Shown one piece after another: positions 22,033 to 28,908 of a DNA stretch of 61,082 bases (position 1 is the stretch's first letter; each line of letters begins with the position of its first letter). The notes below the pieces were generated by a model. The model ran no database searches. It was given only the letters and a program-made list of their open reading frames with translations, and was not told the origin of the DNA. Source of the stretch: Microcaldota archaeon (GTDB lineage Archaea > Micrarchaeota > Micrarchaeia > Micrarchaeales > Micrarchaeaceae). The position numbers and the translations under genes were made by a program. The stretch covers positions 68,056 through 129,137 of the forward strand of contig JAKACK010000001.1 in the NCBI GenBank assembly GCA_021821445.1, written 5' to 3'.

Positions 22033-22126
22033 GCCAGGATGGCAGATCGGCTATGCAGCCGCCTGCAGAGCGGCTAAGGAGGGTTCGACTTATAGATTAA
22101 ATTATACGAAATTCCCTCTCCTGGCT
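22033..22126 (+). tRNA. tRNA-Cys (GCA) with an intron in the T-loop
   Basis: Acceptor stem GCCAGGA/TCCTGGC with discriminator T, as required for cysteine. The D-arm is GCA-GATCGGCTA-TGC, the anticodon arm GCCGC-CTGCAGA-GCGGC with anticodon GCA, and the T-stem GAGGG/CCCTC. Between the T-stem strands are 30 nt rather than 7, so a 23-nt intron interrupts the T-loop. The mature loop would read TTCGACT and the mature tRNA is 71 nt. CCA is not encoded. A TATA-like TTATATTG lies just upstream (about 22017). Confidence 0.9.
22090..22112 (+). other. tRNA-Cys intron (T-loop, between positions 59 and 60)
   Basis: A perfect bulge-helix-bulge can be drawn. The outer helix is the T-stem GAGGG/CCCTC. The 4-bp central helix is TTCG (22084-22087) with CGAA (22107-22110). 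The 3-nt bulges are ACT (22088-22090) and ATT (22111-22113). The inner helix is TATA/TATA. Cutting each bulge after its second base removes these 23 nt and restores a normal 7-nt T-loop. Non-canonical introns at this position are known in some archaea. Confidence 0.82.
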
Positions 22127-22278: not shown

Positions 22279-22367
22279 CCCGTTGTAGCTCAATGGTAGA
22301 GCGGCCGGCTGTAGCCTGTAAATAGAAAGAAACCGGCAGGTTGGGCGATCGAATCACCCCAACGGGA
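22279..22367 (+). tRNA. tRNA-Tyr (GTA) with an anticodon-loop intron
   Basis: Acceptor CCCGTTG/CAACGGG with discriminator A and the C1-G72 pair typical of archaeal tRNA-Tyr. The D-arm is GCTC-AATGGTA-GAGC, and the anticodon stem GCCGG/CCGGC. The anticodon loop has 24 nt, which is a 7-nt loop CTGTAGA plus a 17-nt intron at 22315-22331, the canonical 37/38 site. The bulge-helix-bulge is relaxed, with one mismatch. The T-arm is irregular (GGGCG-ATCGAAT-CACCC), with A at position 54 and a C-A mismatch in the stem. CCA is not encoded. Confidence 0.85.
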
Positions 22368-22427
22368 CCTTTTGAAATTCAATAAATAGGAAAAGTTTAA
22401 AGATTTTAAAGGTTAAATAACTTTGAT

Positions 22428-22499
22428 GTCTCGGTGGTGTAGTGGTTAGCATACGAGCCTGTCACGCTTGTAACTCGGGTTCGAATCCCGGCCGAGGCG
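22428..22499 (+). tRNA. tRNA-Asp (GTC)
   Basis: A complete 72-nt tRNA without intron. Acceptor GTCTCGG/CCGAGGC (one T-G wobble) with discriminator G, anticodon arm CGAGC-CTGTCAC-GCTTG, anticodon GTC, and T-arm TCGGG-TTCGAAT-CCCGG. CCA is not encoded. It lies about 60 nt downstream of tRNA-Tyr. The remaining bases from 22500 to 22641 show nothing but AT-rich promoter-like sequence for the next gene. Confidence 0.95.
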
Positions 22500-22641
22500 T
22501 ATTCTGAATAAAACTTATGGGTACATAAATTTTCACTTTAATCCTAATTTTTATTATAAATTTTGCTTATTTGCCTATTTGTTAATTTTTATTTTAACCA
22601 TCTCATTTTTAAATTTGAGATACAAAATAAATTAGATCTGC

Positions 22642-23574
22642 ATGAAACAGTATAGTAAAAAATATTTTTATCTTTTAAAAATCTATAGGGGTGAATTACT
22701 TCATCATTATATATATGCAGAACTTAGCAAAAGTGAAAAGGATAAAGAGATAAAAGATATATTAGAAAAATTAGCAAAAGCAGAAGAAAAACATGCAGAT
22801 TTATGGAAAAAAATACTCCATATAGAAGAAATACATTTAAGAAAAACAAAAGCAAAACCAATGCTTTTTTTTATTAAACTTATTAGAAGAGTTTTAGGAT
22901 TAACCTTATTAATTAGTATAATAGAAAGAGGAGAAAGACAGCTTTATAATAAAATGGATTATATAATATCGGTTGGCGGATTCTCTAAATTAGAAAAAGG
23001 TATAATAAGTGAAATAAAGAAGGACGAAATGAAAAATGAAAAGCCATTAGAAGATAAAATTCTTTATTACAATTCTGTTCTTGATAACATTAGGGATATA
23101 ATATTTGGAATGAATGATGGGTTGGTCGAAGTTGTCGCTGCGGTTGCTGGTCTCGGATCAGCACTTTATTATGCTAATTACATACTTCTAGGTGGTATTA
23201 TAATTGCATTGTCAGGTACAATGTCAATGGCTGGAGGTGCATTTCTTTCTACTGAATATGAAAAAAATATAAATATAAAAAAGGATGGAAAAAAACCAAA
23301 AAGTTCGGCTATGTATGTTGGATTAGCTTATATATTCGGTGCAATGTTCCCTTTATTGCCATTTATATTTGGAATTAGTGGTTATTTGGGTGTTGCTATA
23401 TCTTTAGTTATAACTGCAATAGTACTTTCAATTGTTGCATCAATCATATCAGTTATAAGTGATAAAAGTATACCTAAAAGCATAATGAAAACTCTTTTGA
23501 TATCTATGGGGGCAGCAGCAGTTACAATAATATTAGGTTATTATGCAAGAGTATTCTTACATATAGCAATTTGA
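22642..23574 (+). CDS. Ferritin-like/VIT1 fusion metal transporter
   Basis: A fusion of an N-terminal rubrerythrin/ferritin-like helical domain (about residues 1-135, with ELLHHYIYAEL and KAEEKHADLW carrying Glu/His metal ligands) to a CCC1/VIT1 membrane domain (about 145-310) beginning IIFGMNDGLVEVVAAVAGLG. The VIT1 part has about five helices including GTMSMAGGAFLSTEYEKN. Such proteins move iron or manganese across the membrane and may sense or oxidise it with the soluble domain. The gene stands alone after the tRNAs. Confidence 0.85.
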   Translation: MKQYSKKYFYLLKIYRGELLHHYIYAELSKSEKDKEIKDILEKLAKAEEKHADLWKKILHIEEIHLRKTKAKPMLFFIKLIRRVLGLTLLISIIERGERQLYNKMDYIISVGGFSKLEKGIISEIKKDEMKNEKPLEDKILYYNSVLDNIRDIIFGMNDGLVEVVAAVAGLGSALYYANYILLGGIIIALSGTMSMAGGAFLSTEYEKNINIKKDGKKPKSSAMYVGLAYIFGAMFPLLPFIFGISGYLGVAISLVITAIVLSIVASIISVISDKSIPKSIMKTLLISMGAAAVTIILGYYARVFLHIAI

Positions 23575-23945: not shown

Positions 23946-25457
23946 ATGGATACCTCTGAAAAATTAAAAGAATTTTCAAGTAAACTATCAAAAGTAAAGA
24001 TGCTTCCAAAAGCAGATATAAGTGAAGATCTTATAGACAATACTGATATTGATAAGTTAGTAGAAAAACTTGTTTTCAATATTGGCACTTTTGAAGGTGT
24101 GCACTTTGTAGATTCTAATGAGGTAAAGGAGGCTATATCTGAAGTTAACAAATCCAAGATACCTGTTCGTGTAGAAGTTATAAAGTCTGGAGACTTCCAT
24201 CCAATAGCTGCTGATATAGCTGATAATTATAAAATTGAAACACGAGATGTTGAACATGCAGAGGGTAATGTAGCAGATTTTGTAAATTATTTTAGAAATA
24301 GAATTGAAAGACTAAGAAAGATACTTAATGCAAGACCTTCTCCAGATGGATCACCTGTTGAAAGACTAGATCTGTTAAAGGATTTCATTGGTAGAGATGT
24401 CTATATAATAGGTATAGTTACAAGCAAAATAACTACCAAAAAAGGAAATATAATGGTTGTTATGGAAGATGAGACTGCCGATGTAAAAGTTATATTTTCA
24501 AATAATAATTCAGCTATTGGAAAAAGCTTGTTTAACACCGCTTCTTCCATAATTAATGATGAGGTTATAGCTATAAAAGGAAAACTGATAAATCAATTTG
24601 TCATTGCTAAAGAGATTATATGGCCAGATATACCTATATTAGAGAGAAAAAGCATAAATGAAGATTTAGGAATTGCTTTTATATCTGATATTCATGTGGG
24701 CAGCAAACTTTTTATGGAAAATAATTTTGTTTCTATGATAAAATGGTTGAATGGTAATTCCACAGATAAACGTAATAAAGAACTCGCAGGTAAAGTTAAA
24801 TATATAGTTGCATCGGGAGATATTGTAGATGGTATTGGTGTTTACCCTAATCAGGATAGAGATTTATCTTTACCTGATATGTACATGCAGTACAAAATGT
24901 TCTTTGATTTAATAGAAAATATACCTGATTATATACAAATATTTGTACTTCCAGGAAATCATGATTCAGTAAGAAGAGCTGAGCCACAGCCTGCCTTACC
25001 TAAATCTTTAATAAAAGATTATCATAGAGATAACGTACATTTTGTATCAAATCCTTCTTACCTTGAATTAAATGGCATAAATGTATTGGCTTATCATGGA
25101 ACTTCACTTGATTCAATTATAAGTGCAATACCTGGAATGAGTTATGATAAACCTGAACTTCCAATGGTTGAACTTTTAAAAAGAAGACATCTATCTCCTA
25201 TCTATGGTGGTAATGTTATAGTACCAAGCAAAAATGATAATCTTGTCATAGACAAAGTTCCAGATATACTTGTTATGGGTCATGTACACAAGAACGGAAT
25301 AGCGAGGTATAAGGGTGTAACCGTAATAAATGATGGTACATGGCAAGCTAGAACGGCTTTCCAAGTTAAATTTGGACAATTCCCCACACCTGCAAGAATG
25401 CCTGTTTTTGAAATGAAAAATTATAACATAACTACGGTAAATTTCAGCGGTGAATAA
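23946..25457 (+). CDS. polB: DNA polymerase D small subunit DP1
   Basis: Proofreading subunit of the archaeal replicative polymerase PolD. A helical N-terminal region is followed by an OB-fold (about residues 145-235) and an Mre11-like phosphoesterase domain with SDIHVGSKLF, SGDIVDGIG, LPGNHDSVR, YHGTS and MGHVHKNG. All exonuclease metal ligands look present. The last codons (GGT GAA TAA) supply the ribosome-binding motif for the overlapping DP2 gene, so the two subunits are made in step. Confidence 0.93.
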   Translation: MDTSEKLKEFSSKLSKVKMLPKADISEDLIDNTDIDKLVEKLVFNIGTFEGVHFVDSNEVKEAISEVNKSKIPVRVEVIKSGDFHPIAADIADNYKIETRDVEHAEGNVADFVNYFRNRIERLRKILNARPSPDGSPVERLDLLKDFIGRDVYIIGIVTSKITTKKGNIMVVMEDETADVKVIFSNNNSAIGKSLFNTASSIINDEVIAIKGKLINQFVIAKEIIWPDIPILERKSINEDLGIAFISDIHVGSKLFMENNFVSMIKWLNGNSTDKRNKELAGKVKYIVASGDIVDGIGVYPNQDRDLSLPDMYMQYKMFFDLIENIPDYIQIFVLPGNHDSVRRAEPQPALPKSLIKDYHRDNVHFVSNPSYLELNGINVLAYHGTSLDSIISAIPGMSYDKPELPMVELLKRRHLSPIYGGNVIVPSKNDNLVIDKVPDILVMGHVHKNGIARYKGVTVINDGTWQARTAFQVKFGQFPTPARMPVFEMKNYNITTVNFSGE

Positions 25458-25458
25458 A

Positions 25459-28400
25459 ATGAATATTGATCAATATTTTAAATCCATATCAAATGATGTT
25501 GATAAGGCTTATGAAATCGCAGAAAAGGCTAGATCTGAAGGTTATGATCCAGAAACCTTTGTTGAAATAAGACCTGCACCTGATTTAGCTTCTAGAGTGG
25601 AAGGAATTATAGGTATTGATGGATTGGCAGCTATGATAAAAGAGAGATCCAACGATGTTAAATCAAATGAGGAGTTAGCATTTTCTGTTACTAGAGAAAT
25701 ATGTAAGAATGATAAATTTAACGATATGAAGCTAGAAAAAAGATTACTTTTAGCTGTAAGAGTTGGGCTGGCAATATTAACTGATGGTATATTAGTAGCG
25801 CCTACAGAAGGACTTCAAGGTGTTGAGATACATAAAAACCCAGATGGAACCACCTATGCGGCAATACTATATGCAGGGCCTATAAGAGGGGCAGGTGGAA
25901 CAAGCGCAGCTTTATCTGTAGCACTTTTAGATGCTGCGAGAAGAGTATTTGATATTGGTGAATATAAAGCAACACCAACAGAAATAGAGAGGTATGTTGA
26001 AGAGATAGGTCTTTATAATTCAAGAGTTGCAAGACTTCAATATCTTCCCCCAGATGATGATATAAGGACAATAATAGAAAATTGCCCTGTTTGTATAGAT
26101 GGATTGCCCACAAATGATGAAGAGATTACAATGCATAGAAACATAGAAAGATTAGATGCTAATGGAAATCCAAAACTTATGTCAAATAGGATAAGAAGTG
26201 GTGTTTGCTTAGTTTCTTGTGAAGGTATAGCTCAAAAAGCAAAAAGTGTACTGAAACATACAAAAAATAGTAATCTTGATTGGAGCTGGTTAAATAAAAT
26301 AATAAAGTTGGATAAAGGTACAACTGTTGCTTCTAAAGTAAATACTCCAAAAACGGCAGTATTTTTACAGGAACTTGTTGCAGGAAGACCTGTATTTTCA
26401 TATCCTGATCATCCAGGAGCTTTTAGGCTTAGATATGGGAGATCAAGATTCACAGGAATTGCTTCAAAAGGATTTAATCCTGTTACTATGTCATTGATGA
26501 ATGGTTTTATAGCAACAGGTACGCAATTAAAAGTTGAAAAACCTGGAAAGGGTTGTGTTGCAGTACCGGTTACATCAATTGAAGGACCTTTTGTAAAGCT
26601 CAAAAATGGAGATGCTTTTAGAATAAACACTACTGAGGAATATTTGAAGTATAAAGATAATATAAAAAAGATAATGTCTGTTGGTGACATACTTGTAACT
26701 TATGGAGATTTTAAAAAGACCAACACACCATTACAACCAACCAGTTATGTTGAAGAGTACTGGTATCAGCAGCTATTGGATGCGGGTTATAAAGGGAAAA
26801 TACCTGATTTAAAATCTTTTAAAGATGCTTATGATTATTCAATTAAATATAATGTCCCACTTCATCCAAAATATCTTTATGATTACTCTGATGTTAGTAT
26901 AGGAGATATAAAATTCTTAATAAAAAAAATAAAGGAGTTGAATATAGATACAACAAGTCTGTTTGATTTAGAATCTCTAGTTTTCAATGATTCTGATAAT
27001 GATAGAGTTAGGGATATATTAGAAACAATATGCATTCCACATTCAGATAAATTAAATATACTTACATTAAATAAAGATGATGCACAGAGTTTAATTACAA
27101 CGTTAGGTTTAGCATCTGATGGAGTTATAGATCAGAATAGATATGATCTCGAAACTTATGGTGATAAAATTAATGTATTGGATTTGTTAAATGCTACCAG
27201 CCCTATAAAAATAATGAAAAGATCGACACGTATAGGAGGTAGGATGGGAAGGCCAGAAAAAGCTAAAGAACGTCTTATGAAACCTGCAGCATCTTTATTA
27301 TTCCCTATCTCTGATTATGGAACAAAAGAAAAAAGCATATATAAAGCATATATGCAGCAATCAAGAAACTTTGGATCTAGCGAAATTTCGGTAGAAATAG
27401 CTAGAATGATTTGTGATAAAGGCAAAGAACAGGTAACCTCCTTTTATTGTAGAGAACACAATTGCAGAGCGCACTTGGAAAAAATATGTAGAGATTGTGG
27501 GAATAAAGTAGATGGTGATAAATGTGAAAGATGTGGTGGAACTCCCATAACATATAATTCGGTTAGGGTTGATCTTGTAAAGCTTATATCTGAATCTATG
27601 AAGAGAACTGGAGTAAATGTATTGCCTAAAAACTTAAAGGGAATTGGAAGCTTGGTGAGTGGAAGTAAAATACCTGAGGATATGGATAAAGGTATTTTAA
27701 GAGCTTCACATGAGATAAGCATATTTAAAGATGGAACTGCTAGATTTGATGCAACTGATGTGCCTTTAACCCATTTTTACCCGAAAGAGATGAGAGTATC
27801 GGTTGAAAAGCTTAAAACTTTAGGTTACGAAACAGATTATCTTGGAAATCCACTTGAAAGGGATGATCAACTTGTTGAAATGATGCATCAGGATGTAATT
27901 TTGAATAACCGAGGTGCTGATTATTTGATGAGAACTGCTCAGTTCGTTGACGATCTGCTTGTTAAATTTTACAATCTAGATCCCTATTATAAGATATCAA
28001 CAAGAGATGATTTAATTGGAAACTATGTGATAACTTTATCCCCACATACATCGGCAGGGGTAGTTGGACGTATAATAGGGTTTACGGATGCTAATGTTGG
28101 ATTTGCACATCCATATTATATATCAGCTAGAAGGAGAAATTGCGATGGAGATGAAGATACAACTATGCTGCTTATGGATGCTTTGCTAAATTTTTCAAAA
28201 CATTACCTACCAATAACAATAGGAGGTACTATGGATGCACCTTTAATTTTAACCGTGAATGTAAAACCTGAAGAAGTGGATGATGAAGTTCACAATATGG
28301 AGATAATACGCAATTACACTAAAGACTTTTATGATAAAACTTTTGAATATCCACCACCTTCTGAGGTAAAAGTAAAGATAGTTGAAGATGAACTTAATAC

Positions 28401-28908
28401 ATCCGATATTTATTCTCATTTGGAATTTACCCATTTAAGTGATATAAATTCAATTGATGATGCACCACTTAAAAGTGCGTACACAACTTTAAAAACAATG
28501 CAAGATAAAATAGATAAACAATTTGAACTTATGGATAAGCTTTATACAATAGATAAAAGGGATACAGCGAGAAGGTTAATAATGAGCCATTTTATACCTG
28601 ATTTAATGGGTAATTTACATTCGTTTTCAAAACAGACTGTTAGATGTATAACTTGTAATGCTAAATACCGCAGAGTTCCTTTAGTTGGAAAATGCACTAA
28701 GTGCGGTGGTAGGTTAGTACTCACAATATCAAAAGGAGGTATAGAGAAATATCTCAATGTAACCTTAAACCTTGTTGATAGATATAATTTAGAGGATTAT
28801 ATAAAACAAAGAGTTCTTTTGATAAAGGATGAGATAGAAACTGTATTTGGGGGTATAGGTGAGGAAAGCCTTCCAACAAATCAGTTTAATTTAGCAAAGT
28901 TTATATAG
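25459..28908 (+). CDS. polC: DNA polymerase D large subunit DP2
   Basis: Catalytic subunit of PolD, an RNA-polymerase-like double-psi beta-barrel enzyme found in Euryarchaeota and DPANN but not Crenarchaeota. The catalytic segment is RRRNCDGDEDTTML. Zinc-binding pairs CRDCG/CERCGG and CITCN/CTKCGG are visible, and the C-terminus NQFNLAKFI looks like a PCNA-interacting peptide. No intein interrupts it, unlike many euryarchaeal DP2 genes. The start is the ATG at 25459, 5 nt after GGTGA. Confidence 0.94.
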   Translation: MNIDQYFKSISNDVDKAYEIAEKARSEGYDPETFVEIRPAPDLASRVEGIIGIDGLAAMIKERSNDVKSNEELAFSVTREICKNDKFNDMKLEKRLLLAVRVGLAILTDGILVAPTEGLQGVEIHKNPDGTTYAAILYAGPIRGAGGTSAALSVALLDAARRVFDIGEYKATPTEIERYVEEIGLYNSRVARLQYLPPDDDIRTIIENCPVCIDGLPTNDEEITMHRNIERLDANGNPKLMSNRIRSGVCLVSCEGIAQKAKSVLKHTKNSNLDWSWLNKIIKLDKGTTVASKVNTPKTAVFLQELVAGRPVFSYPDHPGAFRLRYGRSRFTGIASKGFNPVTMSLMNGFIATGTQLKVEKPGKGCVAVPVTSIEGPFVKLKNGDAFRINTTEEYLKYKDNIKKIMSVGDILVTYGDFKKTNTPLQPTSYVEEYWYQQLLDAGYKGKIPDLKSFKDAYDYSIKYNVPLHPKYLYDYSDVSIGDIKFLIKKIKELNIDTTSLFDLESLVFNDSDNDRVRDILETICIPHSDKLNILTLNKDDAQSLITTLGLASDGVIDQNRYDLETYGDKINVLDLLNATSPIKIMKRSTRIGGRMGRPEKAKERLMKPAASLLFPISDYGTKEKSIYKAYMQQSRNFGSSEISVEIARMICDKGKEQVTSFYCREHNCRAHLEKICRDCGNKVDGDKCERCGGTPITYNSVRVDLVKLISESMKRTGVNVLPKNLKGIGSLVSGSKIPEDMDKGILRASHEISIFKDGTARFDATDVPLTHFYPKEMRVSVEKLKTLGYETDYLGNPLERDDQLVEMMHQDVILNNRGADYLMRTAQFVDDLLVKFYNLDPYYKISTRDDLIGNYVITLSPHTSAGVVGRIIGFTDANVGFAHPYYISARRRNCDGDEDTTMLLMDALLNFSKHYLPITIGGTMDAPLILTVNVKPEEVDDEVHNMEIIRNYTKDFYDKTFEYPPPSEVKVKIVEDELNTSDIYSHLEFTHLSDINSIDDAPLKSAYTTLKTMQDKIDKQFELMDKLYTIDKRDTARRLIMSHFIPDLMGNLHSFSKQTVRCITCNAKYRRVPLVGKCTKCGGRLVLTISKGGIEKYLNVTLNLVDRYNLEDYIKQRVLLIKDEIETVFGGIGEESLPTNQFNLAKFI

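Follow-up and report, generated by a model that had tools for sequence, protein, structure and literature searches.

Archaeal introns that are delimited by a bulge-helix-bulge (BHB) and lie outside position 37/38 of the tRNA, the T-loop included, are already known (PMC6379350). The closest described counterparts of the locus considered here are ARMAN-1 and ARMAN-2 (Ca. Micrarchaeum), which share the phylum of the present Micrarchaeote while belonging to another genus. They possess multiple intron-containing tRNAs (PMC4033280), and their non-37/38 introns are removed via BHB-type motifs by an epsilon-2 endonuclease (Fujishima 2011 and Hirata 2012, cited from the reviews PMC4033280 and PMC6379350). 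Enzymes of this type are reported to be broad in specificity, accepting relaxed as well as canonical motifs at a variety of positions in the tRNA (PMC4033280, PMC6379350). ARMAN tRNAs with introns at 59/60 are not itemised in these two reviews. The Thermoproteales/Crenarchaeota likewise carry BHB introns beyond the anticodon loop, including in the T-loop; they differ in using an (alpha-beta)2 endonuclease, whose broad specificity derives from an independently acquired Crenarchaea-specific loop (PMC6379350), where the present genome has an epsilon-2 enzyme. In Thermofilum pendens and Cyanidioschyzon merolae, permuted tRNAs feature a BHB exactly at 59/60 (PMC3218864), although their gene halves are inverted in order, whereas the gene described below is interrupted by an ordinary intron. 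The first-pass annotation of this DNA, which had placed introns of this kind mainly in crenarchaeotes and nanoarchaea, thus needs to be widened, as epsilon-2 Micrarchaeota were already known for non-canonical introns (PMC4033280, PMC6379350, PMC12397907).

The window, by which we mean the whole stretch of 61,082 nucleotides analysed from what we call the home genome, contains a tRNA-Cys(GCA) gene at 22033-22126 on the forward strand, exactly the interval previously marked (Table 1). We consider it almost certain that the gene is functional and that its T-loop is interrupted, at position 59/60, by a BHB intron removed through protein-mediated splicing. At the level of sequence, this reading is supported by the predicted fold, the comparison with orthologues, the sister tRNAs of the home genome, and the type of its endonuclease, all of which agree with the strict BHB proposed by the first-pass annotation. 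The acceptor stem (GCCAGGA/TCCTGGC), the anticodon stem (GCCGC/GCGGC) and the loop CUGCAGA, which holds the anticodon GCA, are regular; the discriminator is T at 22126 and CCA is not encoded. The D-stem (GCA/UGC) has 3 bp, as it does in most orthologues. The irregularity lies between the T-stem strands GAGGG and CCCTC (22114-22118), which are separated by exactly 30 nt, so that the earlier reading of an expanded T-loop among otherwise normal arms was exact.

Table 1. Coordinates of the interrupted tRNA-Cys gene and its neighbours in the window, with divided RtcB matches in related genomes
Feature	Coordinates	Strand	Basis
tRNA-Cys(GCA) 5' exon, positions 1-59, 57 nt	22033..22089	+	sequence, fold, ARAGORN on spliced form
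T-stem 5' strand GAGGG, outer helix of BHB	22079..22083	+	sequence, MFE fold
Central helix 5' strand UUCG, tRNA positions 54-57, exon	22084..22087	+	MFE fold
5' bulge ACU; predicted cut AC^U (22089/22090)	22088..22090	+	bulge: MFE fold; cut: inferred
23-nt intron TTATAGATTAAATTATACGAAAT, tRNA positions 59/60	22090..22112	+	fold, splicing test, orthologues
Stem-loop inside intron, TATAG-ATTAAA-TTATA	22091..22106	+	sequence; 4 pairs present in MFE fold
Central helix 3' strand CGAA, intron	22107..22110	+	MFE fold
3' bulge AUU; predicted cut AU^U (22112/22113)	22111..22113	+	bulge: MFE fold; cut: inferred
tRNA-Cys 3' exon, position 60 to discriminator, 14 nt	22113..22126	+	sequence, fold, spliced-form test
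Acceptor 3' strand of tRNA-Cys	22119..22125	+	sequence, fold
tRNA-Tyr(GTA), neighbour, ordinary anticodon-loop intron	22279..22369	+	ARAGORN, Rfam
tRNA-Asp(GTC), neighbour, intronless	22427..22500	+	ARAGORN, Rfam
RtcB split matches	G037:C3:439360-442167, G039:C1:402628-405438, G055:C15:2908-5715, G035:C98:1615-4709		

The minimum free energy (MFE) fold of the unspliced 94 nt is a cloverleaf with the BHB in its T-arm, where a 4-bp UUCG/CGAA helix stands between the 3-nt bulges ACU and AUU, as had been proposed, and is followed by an inner intron stem. Its energy of -35.8 kcal/mol (z = -2.84) was equalled in 1 of 200 shuffles, and shuffling of the insert alone produced the full central helix in register by chance in 1.15% of trials. 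Removal of the intron leaves a 71-nt tRNA-Cys with a canonical cloverleaf and the T-loop UUCGACU. ARAGORN identifies this spliced form as tRNA-Cys(gca) and reports no tRNA for the unspliced gene; within the window, tRNA-Cys escapes both ARAGORN and Rfam (run at its gathering score), which call only the adjacent tRNA-Tyr and tRNA-Asp. An intron-bearing orthologue of the former is also present in G002, a one-contig sister genome of the same genus (L201). Further downstream, an open reading frame at 22642-23574 combines an N-terminal part resembling rubrerythrin, which falls slightly short of the curated cut-off, with a C-terminal part similar to VIT1, and lies near the small and large subunits of DNA polymerase D (23946-28908).

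In a comparison of 60 genomes, comprising the home genome and others from its genus, family and order, the 5' exon of tRNA-Cys was matched in 57. An insert occurs at precisely 59/60 in 19 of these orthologues (again counting the home genome) and is lacking in the other 38, which bears out the earlier placement of the intron outside 37/38. By family, the insert is found in 18/34 orthologues of the home family and in 1/23 of the sister family. The 18 inserts other than our own differ from the 23-nt intron that they replace and nonetheless present the same motif: TTCG, a 3-nt bulge, CGA(A) and a second 3-nt bulge are kept, while the remainder varies in length and sequence, the inserts of the tRNA-Cys orthologues ranging from 13 to 29 nt. 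The intronless orthologues have a 7-nt T-loop equal to the predicted spliced product, and that of G037 is identical to the predicted spliced stretch GAGGGTTCGACTCCCTCTCCTGGCT (GAGGG TTCGACT CCCTC TCCTGGC). Splicing would thus restore TTCGACT, as first suggested. A scan of a genome collection found the same two states, with insert and intronless, among named Micrarchaeota records, including a T-loop insert in a Candidatus Mancarchaeum sp. record (L140). One related genome, G049, has two tRNA-Cys genes (L058, L266), both intronless, one of them with an altered D-stem (GACA/TGTG).

Interruptions of this type are not confined to tRNA-Cys. The home genome has four more inserts at 59/60, in tRNA-Leu(CAA), tRNA-Lys(CTT), tRNA-Arg(CCT) and tRNA-Arg(TCG), all missed by ARAGORN, in addition to about 11 further tRNAs with anticodon-loop introns (ARAGORN combined with inspection). 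In G002 there are six, in tRNA-Cys, tRNA-Lys(CTT), tRNA-Arg(TCT), tRNA-Arg(CCT), tRNA-Arg(TCG) and tRNA-Leu(CAA); the one in tRNA-Cys is 29 nt long and shows the BHB seen in the home gene. The central helix varies in a compensatory manner between tRNAs (Cys UUCG/CGAA, Arg UUCA/UGAA, Lys UCCA/UGGA), and in both genomes the Leu(CAA) insert shows no more than a relaxed motif. A full central helix in register was present in 28 of the 34 distinct T-loop inserts from the home genome and its relatives, where 0.65 were expected on shuffling of the inserts, figures that carry no strict probability since the inserts are related to one another and do not represent independent trials. The Ca. Mancarchaeum acidiphilum Mia14 chromosome was described with 45 tRNAs and mention of three introns (PMC5498576), fewer than the introns read in the present analysis.

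Several other peculiarities of these tRNA sets were observed. In the home genome, tRNA-Met, tRNA-Trp and tRNA-Ser(TGA) (L023, L029, L038) have long introns in the anticodon loop with box C/D-like motifs, for example GCGATGAT, as if guide RNAs were encoded there, and tRNA-Ser(GCT) of G002 (L217, G002:C1:31318-31418, minus strand) has an apparent D-loop insert of about 14 nt. A tRNA-Pro with anticodon AGG occurs beside those with TGG and CGG in both genomes (L032, G000:C6:8393-8465; L293, G002:C1:760427-760499), and no tRNA-Pro with GGG was seen in either. An A34 is unusual in archaeal tRNA-Pro.

A candidate splicing enzyme is encoded in the home genome as one protein (P0001, 401 aa) with two PF01974 matches in a single open frame. 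Its alignment with 4fz2, the epsilon-2 tRNA intron endonuclease of ARMAN-2, extends over 390 residues (E 8.8e-162), and 191 of 309 checked alignment columns are identical (~62%). Tyr250, His265 and Lys296 of P0001 fall on the catalytic positions Y236, H251 and K282 of the ARMAN-2 enzyme, and Tyr174-Lys175 on Y160/K161 of the ARMAN-specific loop, residues named in PMC6379350 and PMC12397907. Judged by its sequence, P0001 is an epsilon-2 (ARMAN-type) splicing endonuclease, a three-unit single polypeptide with its key residues intact; the check on endonuclease type recommended in the first-pass annotation thus came out in favour of the intron. Orthologues of the enzyme occur in 59 of the 60 genomes, both with and without the Cys intron. 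No RtcB ligase was detected in the home assembly, which is 85% complete. A missing ligase was our first impression and was rejected, because RtcB is present in 58 of the 60 genomes, including all that are at least 90% complete; the absence is most likely an assembly gap. In four relatives, the match to RtcB is broken into separate segments that mostly share a single open frame about 1000 codons long, an arrangement that looks like an intein.

From the DNA, which directly gives the predicted motif, the mature product and the enzyme gene, we predict the cuts, their exact sites and the ligation as follows. Bases 54-57 of the T-loop (UUCG) would pair with CGAA close to the 3' end of the intron, displaying the two 3-nt bulges between T-stem and intron hairpin. 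The epsilon-2 endonuclease would then cleave at AC^U and AU^U, and RtcB would join the exons into the 71-nt tRNA-Cys; modification of the T-loop and formation of the elbow would have to come after splicing. Cleavage in a BHB follows the second base of each 3-nt bulge. The predicted cut sites depend on this rule and on the intronless orthologues with TTCGACT, since a shifted cut (A^CU/A^UU) would give UUCGAUU, likewise plausible as a T-loop. Archaeal tRNA genes are transcribed from an upstream TATA promoter and not from an internal B box, so that an intron in the T-loop need not harm transcription; a TATA-like sequence precedes tRNA-Cys in several orthologues.

Other accounts of the insert must be weighed against this one. 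The gene might be a pseudogene or decaying copy that has suffered a chance insertion while another tRNA-Cys does the work, and the incompleteness of the home assembly would allow an unseen copy there. However, every stem of the gene is intact and the motif is retained where the intron sequence diverges, neither of which favours decay. The first-pass annotation had named a second, uninterrupted tRNA-Cys gene as grounds for abandoning the intron. It was looked for, and it is neither among the tRNAs detected in the home genome, 85% of which is assembled, nor among the 42 read in G002: BLAST finds one tRNA-Cys copy in the home genome, no second GCA anticodon was seen among its tRNAs, and the only GCA tRNA of G002 is the interrupted one. 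Nearly all relatives have the gene in a single copy, and G002, G010, G026 and G032, each of which consists of one contig, yield no match besides the copy with the intron. We therefore hold a pseudogene to be very improbable.

A mature tRNA that keeps the insert, its T-arm being enlarged, appears more improbable still, given that the insert measures 13-31 nt, is missing in two thirds of orthologues, has the geometry of a splicing-enzyme substrate, and would occupy the T-loop, which is required to form the tRNA elbow. A split or permuted gene is suggested by the position itself, 59/60 being also where permuted tRNAs are joined in Thermofilum and Cyanidioschyzon (PMC3218864). Gene order refutes it, as the exons lie in normal order on the same strand, 23 nt apart, and we give this possibility as little credence as the enlarged T-arm.

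The intron in the T-loop of tRNA-Cys, almost certainly a spliced one, is accordingly real but essentially expected in this group. As to distribution, introns at 59/60 turn up repeatedly yet patchily in tRNAs for Cys, Lys, Arg and Leu, and no report of such a patchy, recurrent pattern across the Micrarchaeota order was found in the literature examined. On the best tree of the endonuclease protein, the pattern of the Cys intron needs at least 7 changes, of which well-supported branches force 2. As support is low for most inner branches and the tree describes an enzyme, not species, we claim from it only that presence of the Cys intron is patchy across relatives, and not a single or a repeated origin. 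Rather tentatively, and with slightly more doubt than conviction, we suggest that 59/60 may be a second hot spot of BHB introns in Micrarchaeota, repeatedly gained and lost between genera and mostly in Cys, Lys, Arg and Leu tRNAs, such that essential tRNAs would be easily missed in published genomes, that of Mia14 included.

Standard tRNA finders miss genes with introns at 59/60, and the tRNA sets of Micrarchaeota may consequently seem incomplete when they are complete. The locus also offers a clean comparative case, in which a single position, compared over dozens of related genomes, shows a short tRNA intron as present, absent or variable and the splicing enzyme is known, making gain and loss at 59/60 directly testable.
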